From positions 1 through 64,000 of the forward strand of contig WIXG01000211.1 in NCBI GenBank assembly GCA_009869945.1: a stretch of 64,000 bases of DNA, written 5' to 3'. Below the pieces are notes generated by a model. The model was not told where the DNA came from. It did not search any database and saw only the letters and a list, made by a program, of their open reading frames with translations. This document shows positions 7,525 through 42,204 of this stretch, one piece after another. Origin of the DNA: Mesaphorura yosii. Taxonomy: Eukaryota; Arthropoda; Collembola; Poduromorpha; Tullbergiidae. Position numbers and translations under genes: made by a program. The first letter of the stretch is position 1, and the number at the start of each line of letters is the position of its first letter.

Positions 7525-10368
7525 TTAAATGTAGTACATTTTAGATTTGAGTTCGTCTTCCATCTTGTGAGTTTCCACCACCATGACCGCATTGGAGAGT
7601 AGTTTGCGAGCGTAGAGGCAGGGTGCAGGCAGAGAGATGGGTCCAGTATGGTTGTAGTACAGGTGGCACATTTTGAAGGTGAACTGCTGTAGCTGATGGC
7701 GGCTCCATCCTGAGTAATCTCGAATCACGGCGTACAAGCACGGATTGGCAGTTCCATATTTGACAGCAGAAGAGATCATGTAGAATTCAAAACGCCCTGG
7801 AGCGATGATTGTCTCGTGGAGTACAGTACCTGGATTCGGGTTTTGGATTTTCTTTTTGACGAACTTGGTGATAGTCTTTCTGGTGACCGCGATAAAGACG
7901 AATTTTGGAGCAGCGGCGTCATTAATTGTTGCGTTGCCTTTGTAGTATTCTTCCAACGCCGTATAAATGCAGTCAGCTTCTTCTTCGTAGTGTCGAAGAA
8001 ATAATTTTTCAGCACGTCCAAGACGATAAAAGATGAGTTTGGTGGGGAGTGATCCATTATTTTGTGATCTGTAGTGGTCCAAAGATTCTGGTGGGAAAAA
8101 TAAAAACGAATAGTCGTTAATACAGAGCCCAGGATAGGAAAGTATATTAAATGCTGTATTTACTTTGTGGTGATCGACTTACTTTTAACGTCCAGACCAA
8201 GAATTTTACGAAGATCACAATTTCCAGCGTACTGAGAAACCGTGTTAAAGTACTGAGCTATGTTATCGTTGAACGTGGCGACAGTTGCAACTGCTCCGGC
8301 TTGGAGACCTTGTTTTGCAGCCCTGGCGTTCCAATTTGTGCAGCAACCAATGATCATGATGCCTTCTGATGGTAACTGGATGCCCCAGGGCTGACCACCC
8401 ATCTTGGCATTCATTTGGATGAGGAGGTTTGTGGCAATCTTCTCATACCAAGCTGGATTCCTCAGATTTTTAGCGAGAAGGCACTGTGATGGGACTGCAA
8501 AACAGAAAACATAAAAAATTAGAATTCAGAATGATGGAGGACAGTAAATGCAAAAGTTTCCAAATAATTTGCTTTGGATAACAAAGTGGACAATCACCTT
8601 TATAGATATTTGTCAGCCGCTTCTTGACAGCTTGATAGACCTCAAATTGGCTGGATTTTAGAATGACAAGTACAATTTGGGTTTGACTGCTGACAGAATC
8701 ATTTACAGCAGCAATGTAACCATTCTTAGAGATGGCTGCTGTCAAGGTGCTCAGATTGTCCACTGTTATACTGCAAACCAACAGAAGATATACCAGACAT
8801 AAATAAAGGAGATTTAAAGGTTGGTTTAAAGAAATTTTAACTGTATCGTGTATTTTACTTACATTCTTGGACTCGAGCTGGTGTCAAGTCCCATCACATT
8901 AGCAACCATTCTCATTGTTTTTAGGAATTCTGAGAATTGGTAGTAGTTTGATTCGGGGACAACAACCGACCAATTCTGCAGTGGGACCGAGGAAAGCATT
9001 TGGCGACCTAAACGAAAATGCGAGAGGCAAATTATTAATAGATCGAACGAAGGTTAATGACTAAACAGGGTAGCCAACTGAATCAGTACTTTACTTACTC
9101 TTGAAGGCCTCGGCCCAGGTGTACTCTAGTGGCAAGTATGGTCTGTTGCCCCCAAGAATCACAGCTTGTATGAGAAGAGTACTGCCAGGACAGTTTGTGA
9201 GCAGTGAAGAGAACCAGAGCCCCCAGTCACGCTTCTCCTTCTTGTATTGCAGCGTAGACTTGAGGGCGACCATGAACTCTTCGACCGATGCGAACGAGGA
9301 GTATGGATCCAGATGCACATTTCGAGCGAAGTAGTCGGTGAAGACTTCATCTTCTTTCATGTCCTTGGGGAGTCCTGCCATGTAGCAGAGTTCGGGCACC
9401 AAGTGAATGTTCACAGCCACACGATCACCGTTCTTATCCTTCTTACTGGAGACAACGACGAGGAGCGGTTGTTTCTCAGCGGTGGGTTGGGCGCCGTAGC
9501 GAGAGCTGTAGTACTCACGGTAGCTGATTCTGTTGACTCCGTGGACGTAGAATTTGGAGTCGGGGCTGAGGTTCCAGTTGACGTCGTCGATGCGGTAGAT
9601 CCTGTTGTTGTACGTGGTGACGACGACCTGACCAATCATGGCCAGTCTGATGATTGGGCGGAGGCTTCCTTTTCGACCGCATGCGTTCGTCGGGCGAAGG
9701 TCTTCGTTGGCAAATTGCTTCAGCATAAAGTCCCAAACAGTTTGATGTCGCACAAAAATTTGAGTATTCTTGACACCGAGAAGAATGTGTTCGTCTTGGC
9801 ACTGTTTCACAGAAAGAATGTAACCTGGCCACATGTCGACACGAGAGCCTTCCTCTCTGAATGTGCACTTACCTAAGGGGTTATAGTATGCGTTGTTGAG
9901 GTTTGTGAGGGCGAGTTCCTTGAGGCACTTCCGAACCATAATGTCAAAGAACTTCCACTGCATGTAATCAGCATCATTCAACTGTCCTGCGAACTGAATT
10001 GTGATTTTAACACTGTCACCGTTCACAGAATCAACGTCCTTGGATACTTTTGAGCTGAGTATTGTTTCCAGCTGGAGTGGACCACGAAGGTAAAGTGCGA
10101 TGCCGTCGTAAATGTACGGTTTATCAGTCAGTTCAGCGAGACGACGAACCAAGTTCTTCCTAGCTCGCCGAGTCTCGATGGGTGGATCAAACTGCACATT
10201 GTGTTTGTGGACACAGGAGCCAGGCTCCAGTGCGAGTTCAAAGTAATTGGAAACATGAATGTATTTAGTTGGAATTTGCATTGGTTCCAGCTGGAGTTGA
10301 TGCTGTTTCATTTCATGATTGATACTGAGCAGTTCACATACGTCTGACTCATTTGTTGCAGTTGCCAT
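7525..10368 (-). CDS. PIWI-clade Argonaute lacking the slicer catalytic residues
   Basis: Five exons on the minus strand: 10368-9099, 9007-8863, 8770-8598, 8494-8183 and 8087-7525. The introns are 91-103 bp and all phases agree, giving 820 residues, a normal PIWI length. The ATG at 10368 has a good context (CACAATGG); the longer open frame above it begins only with TTG. The N domain is present (VSNYFELALEP). So is a PIWI-type PAZ (TYNNRIYRIDDVNWNLSP, then LVPELCYMAGLPKDMKED) at about residues 215-360. MID and PIWI follow, and the end is MYYI, near the family's FYL terminus. The slicer positions are changed: the G-x-D site reads GCC (Cys, 8342-8340), the YRDG site reads YRLG (Leu, 8022-8020) and the PAP-YAH site reads YAR (Arg, 7608-7606). 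It should bind guide RNA without cutting. Binding piRNA is inferred from the clade. Confidence 0.9.
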
Positions 10369-11403: not shown

Positions 11404-12167
11404 TCGGATCCTTCGCCTCGGCATTTGAATAAAGTCGGTTTAATTCTCGCAACCAAAGTAGATAGAATTCCAATGCGCAAATTAGAATAAAAGTAATCAA
11501 TGCAAAGAGCAAAGGTACTAGAATTCTGCTTAGACGCAGACGTCTAGTTAGTGAATGAATCATATTCGAATGATTCAGCTCAGCCTCATTATCCCCGGTC
11601 AAATATTCTTCCGAATAAAATTGTTGCTGGTTGGGTTCATGCGATCAATGCTGGATATGTTTGAAGGTTTAATCATAGGTTCACGATTCACACTCGGACG
11701 TTGAGCTGACGTCCAGTCAACAACTACCCCAATGTCCAAATATCAGCTGAATTATATTTGTGATGACGCATACGGTTTTGCAACTGACCAGACGAGGCAA
11801 CAAGCAAACTGGAAAAAGGCTGTTCCGCGCGACTCATGGCGTAGTCTTTGCGGCTGCACCTTGCTTGCAACTAATATTCTTTACATAATTCGACCATCAG
11901 ATTTGCAAATTATGAGCGATCCTTGAGCAGTTTCCTGAGATGAAAGTTAAGAACGGCTAGGGAACTTTAGCAAAGGCGTATATTGCCAATTGCTGCAGTT
12001 AACAATTGTATTGGGAAGTCCAAAGAACTGACCTCATTCATTCTTGCCTCGCAAGAACTCATTCTTATTGAATTCCGCACTCAGTAAAGAGACGGCTAAA
12101 AGGTTTTATCGTCGACTGCTCGTTTTGTGCTTCTGTAATTTGCTGCATTGGCCTTTCAGCATTTCAG
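11404..12167. other. Intergenic, CNNM upstream region
   Basis: No supported gene. A minus-strand open frame with a hydrophobic stretch (about 11,316-11,560) is discussed under rejected items. The stretch just before 12168 should hold the CNNM promoter and 5' UTR, and CTTTCAGCATTTCAG before the ATG could be a splice acceptor. Confidence 0.4.
11428..11433 (+). promoter_or_regulatory. AATAAA polyadenylation signal
   Basis: AATAAA lies 25 bases after the TGA of the small acidic-tail gene, supporting its plus-strand orientation. Confidence 0.5.
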
Positions 12168-14488
12168 ATGGGTCGTCATAGTTCATTGCTTTGTTTCTGT
12201 CTGATCCTCAATCATTTCCTGACGATATTTGGGAGATCAATCGAGGCAATGACACCGACTACTCCCGACCCAAGTGAATCCAGAACGCTTTCCAGTACTC
12301 AAGACCTGCCTCGTGCTTGGCCGTGGCCAAGTCTCGGTTCTGAAAACATTACCAGCGTGGCATCCATTTTTGGGTTCAGCGTCGAGTACGAATCGAGTGT
12401 GAAAAGTGTCGATTATGCCAATGGTAGTGTGTTTGCATTCGAGGGGCTTCCAATCACAATGCAGCTGTTTGGACTTTTCGTTAAGAACACGAGCCTCATT
12501 TACTCGGACTCGGTGCAGTGCACGAGGGGCAAATACAACCATCCACACCAACTCACCCTTGACGCCGACGCTGGTCTGGGAATGGAAAGTCCATCCGCGA
12601 TATTCACAAGGGCCGCCGTGAGTCTGACGCTTCCTCAGCGATCCATGTTCAGAAAGATTTACTTCTGCCTGCGAACTGGTGAAAATGAGGCCTCCTCCGA
12701 ATGGATCCCACAGAATCCAGCCATTGTGATCCACATCATACGGCCTCATACAACGTCGGCTACCAGCGAACCAGCCCCCGTGGTCGTGTCGCATGAACTT
12801 TCTGTCATCCCGCTCTGGATCCAGCTCATTTTCATCGCCTTCCTCCTTGCTCTGTGTGGGCTCATGTCCGGACTGAACCTCGGACTCATGTCCATCACCA
12901 AAACCGAAATGGAAATCATTCTGCAGACGGGAACCCAGAAGGAGCGGAAGTACGCGGCTCGAGTTCGTCCACTGCGGTCTCAGGGGAATCAGCTCCTCTG
13001 CTGCATTCTCCTCAGCAACGTGATGATCAACGCCACGCTCGCGACGCTCGTTGACCACATCATTTCTGGATTCGTGTCCATAATCATCTCGACGCTCGTC
13101 ATTGTGATTGTGGGGGAAATCGTTCCGCAAGCCGTTTGCATGAAACATGGTCTGGGTAAGATTACTTGTAGTGCGGTATCCTTGAGTTTAACAAAAAAAA
13201 TGGATTTGTTTTTAAATGTAATTTCAATTGCAGCCGTCAGTGCCAAAACAATTTACATCACCAAGTAAGTCTATTTACCAAGTAGGACATATTTCTATAT
13301 ACTGGAAGCTCAATGTATTTTTGTATCTCAGATTTTTCATGTTGATGACCTTCCCCGTTGCTTGGCCACTGGGTCGATTCCTTGACTTTCTGGTCGGGGA
13401 GGAGACCGGCCCCGTGTACACTCGAGAGAGGCTCAAGGAGCTCTTGAAGCTCACGGGTGAACAGAGCGGAATGGAGCCCGTGGAGCTCGGTATCATATAC
13501 GGAGCACTGGACATGAAGAAGAAGACAGTCAAGTATAAAATGCGGCGATTGAACGACGTTTTCATGCTGCCAATCGATACCGTCTTGGACTATAGCACAA
13601 TGCACGCCATCGCGACGCGGTCTCAGGTCCAAGACGTCGAGTACGTGCCCGTGTTCGAGATTCGTCGCTCCAACGTGGTTGCAGTTCTCCATATCAGTCA
13701 ACTCATCCTCGTCAATCCGATGGACCGAATTAGGCTGCGGACGCTCTTGCGACCGAGAGAACGTGAGATGACCCCGAGTTTGTTGCGCGTGCCCGAGAGC
13801 ACGGCGCTCGATTCCATTTTTAAGGAGTTTGTGGCGGGCCAGCGAGCCCACATTGCATTTGTACACAGTCGCGGACAAAGTTTCAGATTAACTGCTGGTA
13901 GCGGTAGTCGTTCTGAAAAATCGCACTGTCTCGGAGTAATTACGATGAAGGACATCGTGCAGCAGCTCCTGTGCACAGAAATTAAACCAAGGCCAAATTC
14001 ACTTACAAGATTCGGCTTCCAGTCTAATACGCCTACGCCTGGCTCGAAAACGAATTGGAATTGGAGCCCAGGATCGAGTGTCCAGCTGAAAGATTTCTGC
14101 ATGATGACCAGCCTGCAATTTATATCAGCCAGTAAGTTTGTCCCACCGAAAGCAAATGCCCTATTTGTAATTTTCTTTTTGTATAGATGTGCTGCCAAGA
14201 TCATCGAAGCTTTTCAAGGTCCTGCAAACGGATCCTGGACCCGGACTCATCTGCCCGTACAACCAAAATTTCAGCACGATCATCAGCTTGAAGACGTTGC
14301 CAGATGAACTCGCAAATCGGACGTCAGCGGAAGGAAGAGACGAAGGCAAAGTTCTAATTCACAGTCTTGGTCAAGATTGCCGAGTAGAATTTCTCATGGG
14401 CAAGAGTTCGCCTTGTACGAAGCACGAGCCAGATTCAGAATTAATGGCAGAACAGAACAAAGGCAGTGCTTCAGATCTTGGCTGGTGA
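12168..14488 (+). CDS. CNNM / ancient conserved domain protein, metal (Mg2+) transport mediator
   Basis: Four exons: 12168-13155, 13234-13264 (31 bp), 13332-14131 and 14187-14488. The introns are 78, 67 and 55 bp with matching phases, giving 706 residues. The order is that of the CNNM/ACDP family. A signal peptide (LLCFCLILNHFLTIFG) leads into an ectodomain. A DUF21 membrane domain follows, with GLMSGLNLGLMSITKTEME and IVGEIVPQAVCMKHGL. Next are an amphipathic ITKFFMLMTFPVAWPLGRFL helix and a CBS pair (EYVPVFEIRRSNVVAVLHIS ... HCLGVITMKDIVQQLL). The C-terminal cyclic-nucleotide-binding-like part is short and weakly conserved. The usual acidic end of the second CBS domain (TLEDVIEEI in animals) reads TMKDIVQQL, so nucleotide or Mg binding may be altered. 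The tiny 31 bp exon is supported by conserved flanking residues. Confidence 0.9.
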
Positions 14489-20154: not shown

Positions 20155-22981
20155 ATGGCTTCGACCATCGCGAGTTCAAACTCTTACCCGGTCAACTCCA
20201 GCGGCACTGGCCCCGGCACGGCTGCAAGCGACAATTTTCAGGAGGTGAGCTCAATTTCATAGCAAGTGTATTCGGAAAACCAAACAAAATTTGCAATATT
20301 TCCCATGTTTGATATTTGCAATATTCGCACGCATTCGTTGGTCGTCTGACAAATCTGCGAGTCGGTCCGGTTCATATTTTGCAATTACACCATGCATTTC
20401 GAGTCTGCAGCTAAGCGGAACGCAGGTTCATGCTGATGCTTGGCGGTGGGGCAGGCAAGGCAGCCTTGTTCCTGACCGTCCACGCCAAGTGCATGTGAAT
20501 GTCAGTGGCAGCGATGGCTACGGGTCTGTGACAACAACAATCATCCTGCGCTGGGCGATAATCACACACACGCACGCATGAAACACATAAACCTGAATGC
20601 CTGAGCATATGTACGATTTTTACACGCGTTTCCATCCAAATTAAAATTTTTGGTTGGTTGGACAGTACCGAATGCTGAATGCTGAGCGCTGACGCTTAAG
20701 ACAACTTCCTACCGTACGCGAACGCGAACTCGATGAGCGTACAGGTTGCATGCGCACAGGATACGAGTCGTCGAGAGGAGATTTGACGGAAATGAATAAT
20801 GTGATCCTCATCATCATTTGCATTGTTATTGTTGTATGAGTCAGAAACGTCTCACAGCCACTGCCTGCCTGCCTACGCTGCACTGTGCAGTGCAGGTGAT
20901 CTCCGAACCGAAACATCCATCACCATCACATCAACCCATCTCATATCGCATCTCCTGAGTTTCAATTGTTTTCAAAGTGCCTTGGACTCGACGAAGGATG
21001 TTTGCGGTGGAGATAAGCTCGGGCTCGTTGATGCTCTTGCTCAGGGCTGATGCTTGGCGATAGGATTGTTTCGCTGATGGCTGTTGGTTCCTTGTAAATA
21101 TCCAAGTTCCTGATCCGCCGCGCAGAGAATATAAGGAATTCAGTAAACGAAAAACGAGTTTTGAGGTAAACGTGAGTGGCGTATTTACAGGTCGTTTCCC
21201 AGCGGAAAAGACGCTCGGCAGGAGCTCAAGGATGCCGGTCGCGAGATGCTCAGGGTGCTTAATGACTAATTAATTTGTCAGGCACGCGGCGAGATTTGAT
21301 ACCCCTTTTCTTCGTGACTGTTGTCTGTGCATTGTGCATGATAATGACGGTCGCTCGTGCCAGAAATTCATTTGTTCGGCTGCTCTCATCCTTTTTTTGC
21401 TCCTGTCCTAATCTTTTGACACGCTCATTCTTCTTCCACACCGTCTTCGTCCCACAGACAGTCGTAGACGTTGTGCGTGCCACATTATCCGAGTAATAAC
21501 ACATTAAACACTAGCTGCAGATACCGCCGCCGTTGGCGTTCATTCACGCACACGCATAATTTGAAGCGTAAATGAGGTTCATGCATGACTTGACCTCATT
21601 TGTCACTCGTGGCGATTGATTTGCCTGAGACTGGAGAGCTTCAAATGACAACTATTCGGACAGTTAACAGCATTGTAATGGCACGAAACTCTTTTGAATA
21701 TTCCCGCAGATTTGGCAAGATCTGGAGCGTATAATAATGGAAGTGGATGACACGGGTGGGCTTCTTCCTCCCAACCCGCACATGGTCAGCCCTATGGCTA
21801 TGTCCACGGGAGCCATTGGATCCCCAAATCTACAATGGTGTTGGTCTCACAATGCGAAGCAGCCGCAGCCACCACACGCTTTCATGATCAAGGTATTTTT
21901 AAATGGCAAATTTCGGGCTTAAATTCCCTTCCCTAGAAAGTAGGCGTTTCTGCTTGGCTTATGCCACTTAATTATTTGCACACTTTCTAAATCTTACTTA
22001 CTTCGATCCATTACTTCGCAGAGGGAACCGTCTCAAACTGAGCTGGACCAACAAGTGCCAACAATCTCGTTCCCAAACGACGACCAAGCCTCAAATTCGC
22101 CCCTCTCAACCTCGCCAGTCGCGTCCCGCTCAAATGGCGGTGCAGATTTCTACTATCCACCAGCACCGCCTTCATCTTCGTCCCTTCCCCAGGCTCACAG
22201 ACTTCCTCCGTTCAATTCCTACCATCACCCGGGCAGTCTTTACGCGAGCCGCCCAGAATATTCCGGCGACTACTCCTGCAGTGTGCAATCAGCAAAGGAC
22301 CCGCCAGCCGAGCCGCATCATCACCACTGCTGCTGTTATGAGTGTTATTATCAGACGCCCGCTCCAACGTTTCATCACCACTACCATCATCATCTCCACC
22401 AGACACCGCCCGTGTCGCATCTGTCTCCTCCATCCACTCCAGATTCGCCTACTCCGACTCCACAGTACTTCCCGCAAACGTTTCATCACCATTCGCCGCT
22501 GCTCCAGTACACGTTTCACCCTCAGCACCTCCCCAAAGCACCAAGACTCCTGACACCACCAACCTCCCCAGCCGCTACTGCTGCAGGACCAACCACTAGC
22601 CAGCAACAACGAGGACAGGCAACATCGACACCAGCAGCAGCGGGCACGTCGCCTGCAGCCAAGCCGGCTGCGAAGCCTCGTCGTCGCCGCAACTGGACCC
22701 GGCGCAAAATGATCATTCACTCATGCACTCATGAGGGCTGTGCCAAGACGTACACGAAATCCTCACATCTGAAGGCGCATCTCCGCACTCATACCGGTGA
22801 GAAACCGTACGTGTGCAACTGGAAACTGTGCGGCTGGAAATTCGCGAGATCGGACGAGCTGACGCGGCATTACCGGAAACACACGGGTGACCGTCCCTTT
22901 CAGTGTCGACTCTGCGACCGAGCATTTTCTCGATCCGACCATCTCGCTCTGCACATGAAGCGGCACATAACCGTCATGTAG
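20155..22981 (+). CDS. Kruppel-like transcription factor, dar1-like, copy 1
   Basis: Three exons: 20155-20244, 21710-21892 and 22022-22981. The introns are 1,465 and 129 bp, both phase 0, giving 410 residues. Exon 1 encodes [13 protein letters not shown]...FQE. Exon 2 opens with the shared motif [14 protein letters not shown]. The middle is Pro/His/Ser-rich with histidine clusters and an [14 protein letters not shown] motif. A SUMO-type IKRE site is made by joining exons 2 and 3 (IK/REP). Residues about 325-407 are three C2H2 fingers with canonical linkers ([18 protein letters not shown]) and the KLF recognition helices [16 protein letters not shown] and RSDHLALH, so it should bind CACCC/GC boxes. 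The fingers match copies 2 and 3 far better than KLF6/7 or KLF5, and a basic [10 protein letters not shown] stretch precedes them. The dar1-like assignment is from memory of the finger sequence. Confidence 0.92.
20245..21709 (+). other. Long first intron of KLF copy 1
   Basis: At 1,465 bp this is by far the longest intron supported in the window; the equivalent introns of copies 2 and 3 are 223 and 189 bp. No coding frame within it is convincing. It may carry enhancer sequence, but no specific site can be supported. Confidence 0.6.
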
Positions 22982-31183: not shown

Positions 31184-33272
31184 ATGGCGAGTGATAGTGG
31201 CAATCAGACGATAGCTCACCAGCTTCATCCAAACGCTCATCTGGACACAAACAACAATGTAAGCCTAGTACATCAGTAATTTAAGAGATATTGTTTGAGC
31301 CCGAGGAGACTTTCCCATTCAACCCTTCAACAATTCAATTCAAACTATCAAGTCAAGATTTTTTCAATGAGAGTCTCACGTTGCCCTGTTGCAGTAGTTG
31401 GCATTTCTCGAACTTGAGACGGTTAACACCGTTTCTGAATACAAACACACGCTTTTGCAATTTAGCATTCTTTTGTTATAGAAAATGTGGCAGGAGCTCG
31501 ACAGTGTGTTTGGCAACGGCTCCGGTGTCGGAAGTGGCGGCAGTGAAACTATGATTCCGCTCTCCCTCCCGCTCCCTTTCCAGCCACTGCAGCGATCCTC
31601 GGCCGCCAGCATCATTGTGGGTGTTGGAGGAGGTCAGTACGGCCCCACGTCGCCGTCAACACTCTCTCAACACACATCGCCTTATCAGCAGCACCAGACA
31701 AGACTTGTGCCCACAACGAACTCGTATTACAATTATTTCCAGCCGTCGATCACGGCGGCAGACACACCGCTCATCGTGAACCTGAAGCGCGAGCCAGGAA
31801 CTGGACACCAGCATTGCTCTTCTCCTGCGAACAGGCAACCGCCTCAGCCACCGGTCTCGGAATCTCATTCACCTCATGAGCCAAGCTCGTCCACGCCCTC
31901 CTCCCCGCCGCCTTCAGCCTGTTACCCGGTCTCGGCAAGTACCACGTGCTACGGGAGCGGGCGAAAGGACTCTTACAATGGAAAGTACTTTGACAACTAC
32001 ACAATGACAATGCGAACCACCTCCACGACATCCAGCACGGCGGCAGCCGCGTACGGCGTGTCTCAGCACGACCCTTCCGCTTCTCCGGCAGCCACGGCGT
32101 TCGAGTACCACTTGGGAGCTGTTTCGTCAGCTGCGAGCCACCATTCTCCGCTTCACGCCATTTATAGTCCGCCACAGCTCCCAGGCGGTGCTGGAGCGGG
32201 AGTGGGGTCGCATCACCACCATCACCATCACGCCGCATTGTATGAATCTCACCACCACCACCATTTTCCACCGCAGGCACCCATCATGCCCGTGCACGTA
32301 CCTTGCTCGGGCACCGGGGCGGGCTCAGCTGCCGTCACGACGCTGCAAATGCAGCAACACCAACAGCAGCAGCTTCTCCTACACCACCACCATCATCACC
32401 ACGGATCTGTGCCAAGCAACAATCTCAACATCAACGTTAACCTGAATTTCCAAGCACCACCGCCAGTCGCACCCAAACTCCCGTCCGCCCTGAACAACTA
32501 CAGTTTCAAAGTGATGCCGCCACTTTCACCGACACACGGAGCGGATATTGGCGGAATGGGCAGCTCCACTTCGCCACTGCTGCCGTACCATCACGCGGCA
32601 CGAACTCATTCTCAGCAGCAGCAGCAGCACCATCAGGCCAGGGGAAGCGGTGGCTCTGCGGCTGCAGCAGCGTTCCTGCGGATTCCAAACATTTCTCATT
32701 CGCATCTGCACCACCATCATCACCACCACCACGGAGGTGGATCGGCGTCAGCCTCTCAATCGCATTCCTCGCTTCAGCAGCACAACTCGCACGGTCAGCC
32801 GGCGCCGGAGTACTTCGCCCACCAGCAGCACGATCTTGACCAGTCTCCAGTCATGCCAATCAACGGCACCGGAATCCTCGCCGACAGCTCCTCACACCAC
32901 CAGCAACTTCCGGGAAACGGACCTGGCTCAAGTGTCCCAGTCGCCTCCGGCGGAGTGGTCGTGAAGATGAAGCGAGGTCGACGACGTTGGGGCCGCAAGA
33001 AGACGACGACGCACTGCTGCACGTACACAGGCTGCATCAAAACGTACACAAAGTCCTCCCACCTCAAAGCCCATCTGCGCACGCACACCGGCGAGAAACC
33101 GTACGTTTGCTCCTGGAAAGGCTGCTGCTGGAAATTCGCGCGATCCGACGAGCTGACGCGACACTACCGCAAGCACACGGGCGACCGACCCTTCCAGTGT
33201 CGACTTTGCGACCGCGCATTTTCTCGATCCGACCATCTCGCCCTCCACATGAAGCGACACATGACCGTCTGA
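31184..33272 (+). CDS. Kruppel-like transcription factor, dar1-like, copy 2 (His-rich)
   Basis: Two exons, 31184-31258 and 31482-33272, with a 223 bp phase-0 intron, giving 621 residues. Exon 1 encodes [14 protein letters not shown]...TNNN. Exon 2 opens [15 protein letters not shown], with the same intron-before-WQ layout as the other copies. The long middle is low-complexity: at least four histidine runs of five to eight residues, polyQ, polyAla and Ser/Pro blocks. It carries a SUMO-type LKRE site ([10 protein letters not shown]) and a [13 protein letters not shown] motif. Three C2H2 fingers end the protein. The helices match copy 1; the first finger has an extra Cys (HCCTYTGC) and the second reads [10 protein letters not shown] basic [13 protein letters not shown] precedes the fingers. 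ATG 31184 has A at -3. Confidence 0.93.
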
Positions 33273-40545: not shown

Positions 40546-42204
40546 ATGTCGTCGACAGAAATCTCGTATTTCCACGACGTAAGTCACACATTTCATTTTG
40601 TTTCATTCCTGCTCGTTTTCTACTATGATTTCCAATTCGCTACGCTCATGAACGCTGAAACGGTCACAATTCTCCGTCCTGCCAAAGCTTCTGCATTGCT
40701 TAAGTTTTCTTCTCTTTGCTGAGTCTTGCCGTCTTTTGTATCTTCAATTTCCCTTTCCTCTTCGCAGATGTGGCAGGACATCGAGAGCGTGTTGCTGGGC
40801 GACGTCTCCTCCGACAACACGACAGGGCTCCCTTGCAGCGACCCTTCGAGTCCCAACGGGTCGCTGTCCAACTCCTCCACAACCTCGTCCTCGTGTTCCA
40901 TCTCCTCAATCAGCGTCCGGTGCACAGACTCACCTGGACCCGGCGCCGTGCTGCAGCCCATTCCCATGTCAACGTTCCTCGCCACGCACGTGCCCTTCGA
41001 CTGCTGCTCAACAATGACAATGTGCATGTCCTCGAAAGAAGTCACGGACGGACGAGACGGTCCGGATGCGGCAGGCGAGGACTTTATCGACCTCGACGAT
41101 GTGATCCGGAGAGCAGCGGAGGATCTCCCACCTTTCTTCAGCAGTACGCACCACAGCAGTCAGCTCCTGGACGAAATCAGCTCGATCCCTTCACTGCATC
41201 CTCATCACAATTGCATCGGTGTGCATTGTTCGTCCTGTGCCAGTGGTGTAAATGTAAGCGATCAGACGCCAGTAAATGGCAGCATCGACGTGAAAAACCT
41301 GATCATAACCTCGACGCCAAGCCAAACCGTGCAATCCACGCCGGGGTTACTCAACGGAGTGTCGACTGGCTGTTACATCTCGCCGTCACCGCCAGACAGC
41401 CCAAACAATGGCAACAGTATGCAAATGCAGCTGCACTCCTCTATCGGAAGTCTCCAGCAGCAGCAGCACACGCACTTGCATCCGACTTCCATGACCCACC
41501 TGAATTCAAACTCCAGCTCGTGTGAGTTCAAACTACTCCAACACGCCCCACTTCAGAAGCTACACCTGCCAAGCATCTCGACCTTTTCAAGTCCCATCGT
41601 CAACTCCGTAACTGCGGCTGTATCTCAGCTTGAGAATAAGTCGTCTATCATCCAGCTGCGCGTGATGACTCCACCGTCATCACCGAATCTCGCCGAACTC
41701 CTTGCAGCATCCGCGGTGCAACTCCAGCCTTCAACCATGTCCGCGTCCCCGCCTCCAATCCCGAACGGTGTTATGTCGCCATCCTTCGAACCACCAACTC
41801 CAAAATCCATTGCTACGTCAAAACGAGGGGCCTCTCTCCTGCAACTCCAAAACGGCCAGAATGGTCCTCCGGCAAGGAAACAGCAAAACGGCGGGACGGG
41901 CAAGCGGACGCGGAAGGGCTGGGGCCGCAAGAAGATCACGACGCACAGTTGCACGCACGCGGGCTGCGCCAAGACGTACACCAAATCCTCGCATCTGAAG
42001 GCTCATCTCCGGACTCACACGGGCGAGAAGCCGTACATTTGTGGGTGGGAGCGCTGCGGCTGGAAGTTTGCGCGTTCGGACGAGCTGACGCGCCACTACC
42101 GGAAGCACACGGGCGACCGCCCGTTCCACTGTCGACTCTGTGATCGCGCCTTCTCCCGCTCCGACCACCTCTCCCTGCACATGAAGCGCCACGTGAGTGT
42201 GTAA
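40546..42204 (+). CDS. Kruppel-like transcription factor, dar1-like, copy 3
   Basis: Two exons, 40546-40578 (11 codons, [11 protein letters not shown]) and 40768-42204, with a 189 bp phase-0 intron, giving 489 residues. Exon 2 begins [17 protein letters not shown], the clearest form of the motif shared by all three copies. The middle is Ser/Thr/Pro/Asn-rich with an acidic stretch ([20 protein letters not shown]), a plausible activation segment. It has a [16 protein letters not shown] motif close to the TPPSSPEL element known from KLF6/7. A basic [11 protein letters not shown] precedes three C2H2 fingers with helices [16 protein letters not shown] and RSDHLSLH, ending at HVSV. The lack of long His runs makes this the least low-complexity copy, and perhaps nearest the ancestral form. 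Confidence 0.93.

Follow-up and report, generated by a model that had tools for sequence, protein, structure and literature searches.

A probably slicer-dead duplicate of a DEDH-type PIWI gene in the collembolan Mesaphorura yosii

Introduction

Loss of RNA cutting by a PIWI protein has been studied best in Drosophila Piwi, which carries the tetrad DVDK, is loaded with guides and does not cut efficiently (PMC7015924). According to the same report, the H874K change alone nearly abolishes slicing by Siwi while piRNA loading is retained, E708V reduces Siwi slicing, and Drosophila Piwi was turned into a slicer by a mutant altering K617 and A625 together with two tetrad residues; its authors proposed that slicing would free partly matched targets prematurely. 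The report also names ten side chains that contact the guide 5' end in Drosophila Piwi, describes a metal-dependent 5' pocket with Gln in PIWI proteins (Piwi Q589) and Lys in eukaryotic AGOs, and assigns the main-chain carboxylate of the Piwi C-terminal residue an assisting role in 5'-end binding (PMC7015924).

PIWI-family proteins without the DDH motif have also been described in mites (Varroa, Tropilaelaps, Metaseiulus and Tetranychus; PMC7659050), and the slicer deficiency of human AGO1 has been ascribed to its tetrad, in which the fourth residue is Arg (PMC9262622). Mosquito PIWIs (PMC2566310) and the expanded Piwil1 copies of cichlids (PMC11753138) are reported to have kept their catalytic residues; duplication alone therefore brings no such loss. 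Among tardigrades, a Piwi homologue with small RNAs has been reported, and H. dujardini possesses 26-nt small RNAs with a 5' U and a ping-pong signature (PMC4323106); in Milnesium piwi-family proteins were found only in early embryos (PMC3459984).

Here, we analyzed a PIWI gene at positions 7525-10368, on the minus strand, of a 64,000-nucleotide stretch of contig WIXG01000211.1 of M. yosii (hereafter, the window), and compared it with the Argonaute family of the genome (93.0 Mb in 1,127 contigs). Its sister in our trees is a PIWI gene on contig C64 (paralogues are named after their contigs).

Results

The gene comprises five exons. Exon 1 (10368-9099) encodes a short N-terminus lacking RG repeats, the N and L1 domains, PAZ (residues 235-340) and most of L2; exon 2 (9007-8863) the end of L2 and the start of MID; exon 3 (8770-8598) MID with the 5'-phosphate residues Tyr517 (8637-8635) and Lys521 (8625-8623); exon 4 (8494-8183) the 5'-pocket residues Gln533, Gln556 and Lys560 and the start of the PIWI domain; and exon 5 with the stop codon (8087-7525) the remaining PIWI domain, including Tyr777 and Asn779, and the C-terminus YYI. 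The 820 encoded residues contain no internal stop, the 2,460 coding bases no frameshift, and all introns are of the GT..AG type. The same four introns were recovered by a purpose-written spliced aligner for which PIWIL1 of PDB entry 9s0z was the sole query, so the exon model of the sequence-only reading was correct, as was its view that the gene is intact. A pseudogene test returned an open frame and rejection of branch-wide neutrality. Upstream of the ATG the frame stays open for another 24 codons before a stop closes it; a further upstream coding exon may exist.

Pfam detected Piwi (191.8 bits, residues 504-796) and PAZ (72.7 bits, 235-340) together in the one protein, as membership of the PIWI clade requires, and the top 11 of 47 solved relatives in the PDB belong to that clade. 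In both of our trees, the PIWI rows, this protein among them, split from the AGO rows with support of 100/100, the second tree omitting three of the five AGO rows. The assignment to the PIWI clade that had been made from the letters alone is thus upheld.

Several other genes lie in the window, all on the plus strand. A gene for a CNNM-type (cyclin M) membrane protein at 12072-14304 probably has at least two exons, the match of the second frame falling just below the Pfam cut-off. Three open frames, at 21944-22978, 31482-33269 and 40723-42201, each end in C2H2 zinc fingers and may be related genes clustered locally. An AGO-clade gene with an intact D-E-D-H tetrad, 50 kb away from our PIWI gene, extends from 59888, where its open frame starts, to 63906; it has a run of RG-rich repeats (GGGFDRGR) in its upstream open frame and groups with the AGOs of C369 and C827.

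All four positions of the slicer tetrad are altered. In both HMMER pairwise and MAFFT alignments, Cys581 (TGC, 8342-8340) takes the place of Siwi D670, Asp623 (GAT, 8216-8214) that of the Glu finger E708, Leu656 (CTT, 8022-8020) that of D740 and Arg794 (CGC, 7608-7606) that of H874, which yields C-D-L-R in place of the complete tetrad of slicer Argonautes. The sequence-only reading had given the exact positions of the Cys, Leu and Arg codons and had counted three changes among the four catalytic positions; the three named changes stand, and its count falls short by the Glu finger, which it had proposed to locate and which proved to be Asp623. The loss of cleavage residues is thus more complete than had been claimed. 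No intact D/E/D/H was present elsewhere in the protein in either alignment, and the agreement of the two methods led us to drop the idea that a misplaced alignment conceals one. Within eight positions of Cys581 the sequence contains no acidic residue.

The second shell has changed as well. Trp584 (8333-8331, minus strand; Drosophila Piwi K617) occupies a column in which, of the 15 other PIWI rows, 13 have His, C64 has Arg and Drosophila Piwi has Lys, and Gly596 (8297-8295, minus strand; Drosophila Piwi A625) one in which 12 of the 15 have Ser, C64 and Drosophila Piwi have Ala, and C626 has Thr. The C64 protein (L010) is thus DEDH with Arg and Ala at the second-shell 617/625 positions, where most rows have His and Ser, and its predicted slicing may be weak.

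At least 52 Piwi-domain matches occur in the genome, grouped into 21 places, that on C6 being below the Pfam cut-off. All 21 were modelled, 19 outside the window and two within it, and they resolved into 17 gene models and four fragments or broken copies (C105, C20, C185 and C6); these four were left out of the tetrad comparison, the trees and the conserved-column counts. Among the models, that of C369 contains one frameshift and that of C827 is N-terminally partial. D-E-D-H is found in 15 of the 17 (10/12 of the PIWI clade, 5/5 of the AGO clade), and the two without it, the gene studied here and C626 (L021), are both PIWI-clade. The C626 model, free of stops and frameshifts, is altered at three of the four positions: the first is a gap with no adjoining Asp, and the second, third and fourth hold Glu, Tyr and Leu, respectively. 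It is probably a second, independent case of catalytic loss. Two further family members deserve mention: the broken PIWI copy on C105 (L014), with stops and frameshifts, has Lys at the fourth catalytic position, as does Drosophila Piwi, and the AGO on C501 (L009), 1,012 residues in a single intronless open frame with D-E-D-H, is possibly a retrogene.

Conserved columns were defined with 13 slicer-type PIWI rows, namely ten from this genome plus PIWIL1, Siwi and sponge Piwi-A from the PDB, with Drosophila Piwi and C626 kept out of the set. Among the 49 columns invariant in these rows, the 7525-10368 protein alters 12, including all four catalytic ones (hypergeometric P = 0.0023). The same test gave five altered columns with two of the four catalytic for Drosophila Piwi (P = 0.047), and 16 with three of the four for C626, which is not significant (P = 0.096). 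When each of the 13 rows was left out in turn, none had lost a catalytic residue. Fast evolution as the sole cause of the tetrad loss was dropped, since C437, likewise a fast row (13 of 62 columns altered when left out), is still DEDH. Our protein is also altered at eight conserved columns beyond the tetrad, of which the PIWI domain contains six (S698, K780, R785, D804, T808 and D814 in Siwi numbering).

The residues that would hold a guide present a different picture. Eight of the ten side chains listed for the guide 5' end (PMC7015924) are kept, namely, in Drosophila Piwi numbering, Y551, K555, Q567, I582, Q589, K593, Y801 and N803, and so are both PAZ tyrosines, Y327 and Y328. The two changed contacts, T570 and T573, lie in family-variable columns and match the state of C64; Arg550 of the specificity loop is changed too, in a column that varies across the family. 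Gln556 occupies the Q589 column, which predicts a metal-dependent pocket of the PIWI type. The C-terminal residue is Ile, and Leu in Drosophila Piwi. By these comparisons, the catalytic positions appear to have been lost more than chance predicts while the guide contacts were mostly spared. C626, in addition to its catalytic changes, no longer has Tyr at one P4-contact position and at one of the PAZ tyrosines.

The gene is sister to C64 in both trees, with support of 100/97 in the first and 100/98 in the second, and the two proteins are 34.5% identical over 724 aligned residues. All four of its introns lie at C64 intron sites with identical phases, C64 having one extra intron (column 873), and three introns common to C73, C309 and C220 (columns 601, 999 and 1076) are missing from the two sisters; C8 and C626 have introns at 601 and 999, and C960 only at 999. 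The shared introns therefore provide independent support from gene structure for kinship with C64, and their retention at the C64 positions led us to reject a retrocopy origin. A recent or assembly duplicate was rejected as well, a DNA search of the whole genome having matched only the gene itself. A loss shared with C626 was weakly rejected in the AU test (p = 0.04, both branches being long), and the introns of C626 at 601 and 999 are absent here. Grouping with Drosophila Piwi was rejected at p = 9e-8, which does not fit orthology; the likeness to the DVDK non-slicer therefore looks convergent. Taken together, trees and introns indicate that the gene is a duplicate of the DEDH-type PIWI of C64 and arose within this lineage. 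Since C64 already has Arg and Ala in its second shell, we infer that the erosion may in part be older than the duplication. Additionally, C185 holds a solitary C-terminal remnant with Ala at the catalytic His position; its identity is 47% to our protein (66 residues) and 40% to C64 (47 residues).

The end branches of the two sisters differ about six-fold in length (1.85 versus 0.33 in the first tree, 1.96 versus 0.32 in the second), and protein constraint is therefore weaker on the 7525-10368 gene than on C64. We fitted a purpose-written branch codon model to three trios containing the gene and two control trios (C626; C437). Its branch omega was 0.06-0.08, a value that is rough and poorly fixed because synonymous sites are saturated (branch lengths of 20-23 neutral units, with some other branches at the bound), and omega = 1 was rejected in all three trios (2 dlnL of 26.2, 29.5 and 28.4); C64 gave 0.08-0.09 in the same fits on a far shorter branch. 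By these fits the branch, taken whole, is under constraint; constraint may have relaxed recently. Had the gene drifted neutrally for 0.03 substitutions per site, about three stops would be expected, and none is observed in the 820 codons.

PIWI proteins dock Tudor proteins through RG repeats. By eye, the 39 residues ahead of the N domain of our protein contain no arginine, RG repeat or basic cluster, and the in-frame stretch upstream in C64 is RG-rich (GGRGRGTRLRSRR). The lack of a basic cluster tells neither for nor against the nuclear silencing role that the sequence-only reading had suggested. As printed, and again by eye, RG repeats appear in the upstream frames of four of the 11 paralogues (C64, C494, C309 and C8) and in none of the other seven, these frames having been scanned without exon models and several beginning only at the first Met; because only four of 11 show repeats, their absence from our protein is a weaker mark than it looks. 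A role outside Tudor docking is nevertheless plausible on the basis of its predicted N-terminus. The genome also contains one match to Maelstrom, covering 36 of 215 profile positions, and four to the CHHC zinc finger, the type present in GTSF1/Asterix, and these matches suggest that cofactors of the piRNA pathway are present. A search for RdRP found no match in this genome, and none in the control genomes either, and its result therefore carries no weight on either side.

Discussion

We consider it most likely, with a probability of roughly 0.65, that the gene encodes a slicer-dead duplicate of the DEDH PIWI of C64 that is loaded with guides and binds targets without cutting them. Since Siwi H874K and Drosophila Piwi load guides without efficient cutting, the protein should, by analogy, load, bind and not cut. 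A small guide RNA would be loaded in the usual manner, with its 5' end in the MID/PIWI pocket and its 3' end in PAZ; the loaded protein would pair with target transcripts and hold them uncut, and silencing would arise from whatever the bound protein recruits or blocks. From the protein sequence, we infer alike the lack of cleavage in vitro, guide loading, target binding, partner recruitment and the compartment in which the protein works. The binding-only role suggested by the sequence-only reading gains indirect support from the kept 5'-end contacts, the PAZ tyrosines and the rejection of neutrality over the whole branch.

The protein could instead be a decoy or antagonist, which would bind guides, targets or partners used in common but hand none of them to a silencing machine, and would thereby lower the activity of the DEDH PIWIs. 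The preservation of most guide-binding residues after the loss of the cutting residues would suit such a role equally, and the genome supplies ten DEDH PIWI models to compete with; sequence cannot tell a decoy from a recruiter, and we regard this alternative as unlikely. A gene under relaxed constraint that is heading toward loss, its role minor or already gone, seems improbable. The long end branch fits decay, as do the broken PIWI copies on C105 and C20 and the fact that the sole further piece found to be closer to the gene than to C64 is a lone fragment (C185, with 66 matched residues); however, the unbroken coding bases and GT..AG introns, the strong average constraint on the branch, and the disproportionate loss of catalytic positions with guide contacts mostly kept all speak against it. 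Residual cutting through substitute residues nearby is very improbable: Asp623 is a conservative change at the Glu-finger position, but Cys and Leu replace both catalytic aspartates, no acid lies close to Cys581, and in relatives a fourth residue that is Lys or Arg goes along with the loss of slicing. Orthology with Drosophila Piwi through a single ancestral loss is scarcely credible, for although this non-slicer tops the solved relatives (332.1 bits), PIWIL1 (PDB 9s0z) is practically equal (331.5 bits), and the AU test, the introns and the sister position with C64 all oppose it.

Beyond the reading as a guide-loaded, non-cutting duplicate, we tentatively suggest a broader scenario, which we hold to be possible rather than probable. 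Non-cutting PIWIs would have arisen at least twice here from DEDH stock, in this gene and in C626, converging on the strategy of Drosophila Piwi. The route would have been stepwise: the second shell is already eroded in C64, the entire tetrad would have gone next while most of the grip on the guide remained, and the N-terminal RG repeats were perhaps lost too; the outcome would be a guide-loaded binder outside Tudor-docked ping-pong, with a silencing or regulatory arm of its own.

Non-slicing PIWIs are already known from Drosophila and mites, and this member of the kind is marked by an unusually complete erasure of the tetrad, by a DEDH sister that the genome still carries and by C626 as a probably independent second case. 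Drosophila Piwi resembles our protein in its PIWI clade, its non-canonical tetrad, in which a basic residue replaces His, and its kept 5'-phosphate pocket and PAZ tyrosines, but it keeps both catalytic Asp residues, which are replaced here, and is not orthologous by tree. In mite PIWIs the catalytic triad is likewise wholly or partly substituted (PMC7659050), although the substitutions are SRG, SRS and NDH/NDY. Human AGO1 and AGO4 are described as catalytically inactive, and AGO1 has an Arg at the fourth position (PMC9262622); they differ in being AGO-clade proteins with microRNA guides, AGO1 retaining the first three catalytic residues. The SAGO/WAGO proteins of C. elegans are secondary Argonautes that reportedly lack key metal-binding residues (PMC2566310), but they are worm-specific and used with RdRP-made 22G-RNAs (PMC4323106). 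C64, the sister gene with four introns in common, differs in its D-E-D-H tetrad, its RG-rich upstream stretch, its short branch and the Arg and Ala of its second shell. The pair formed by the two genes, a separate loss of cutting next to a surviving DEDH sister, is a natural replicate of the Drosophila Piwi case, which a comparison of the paralogues can put to the test.
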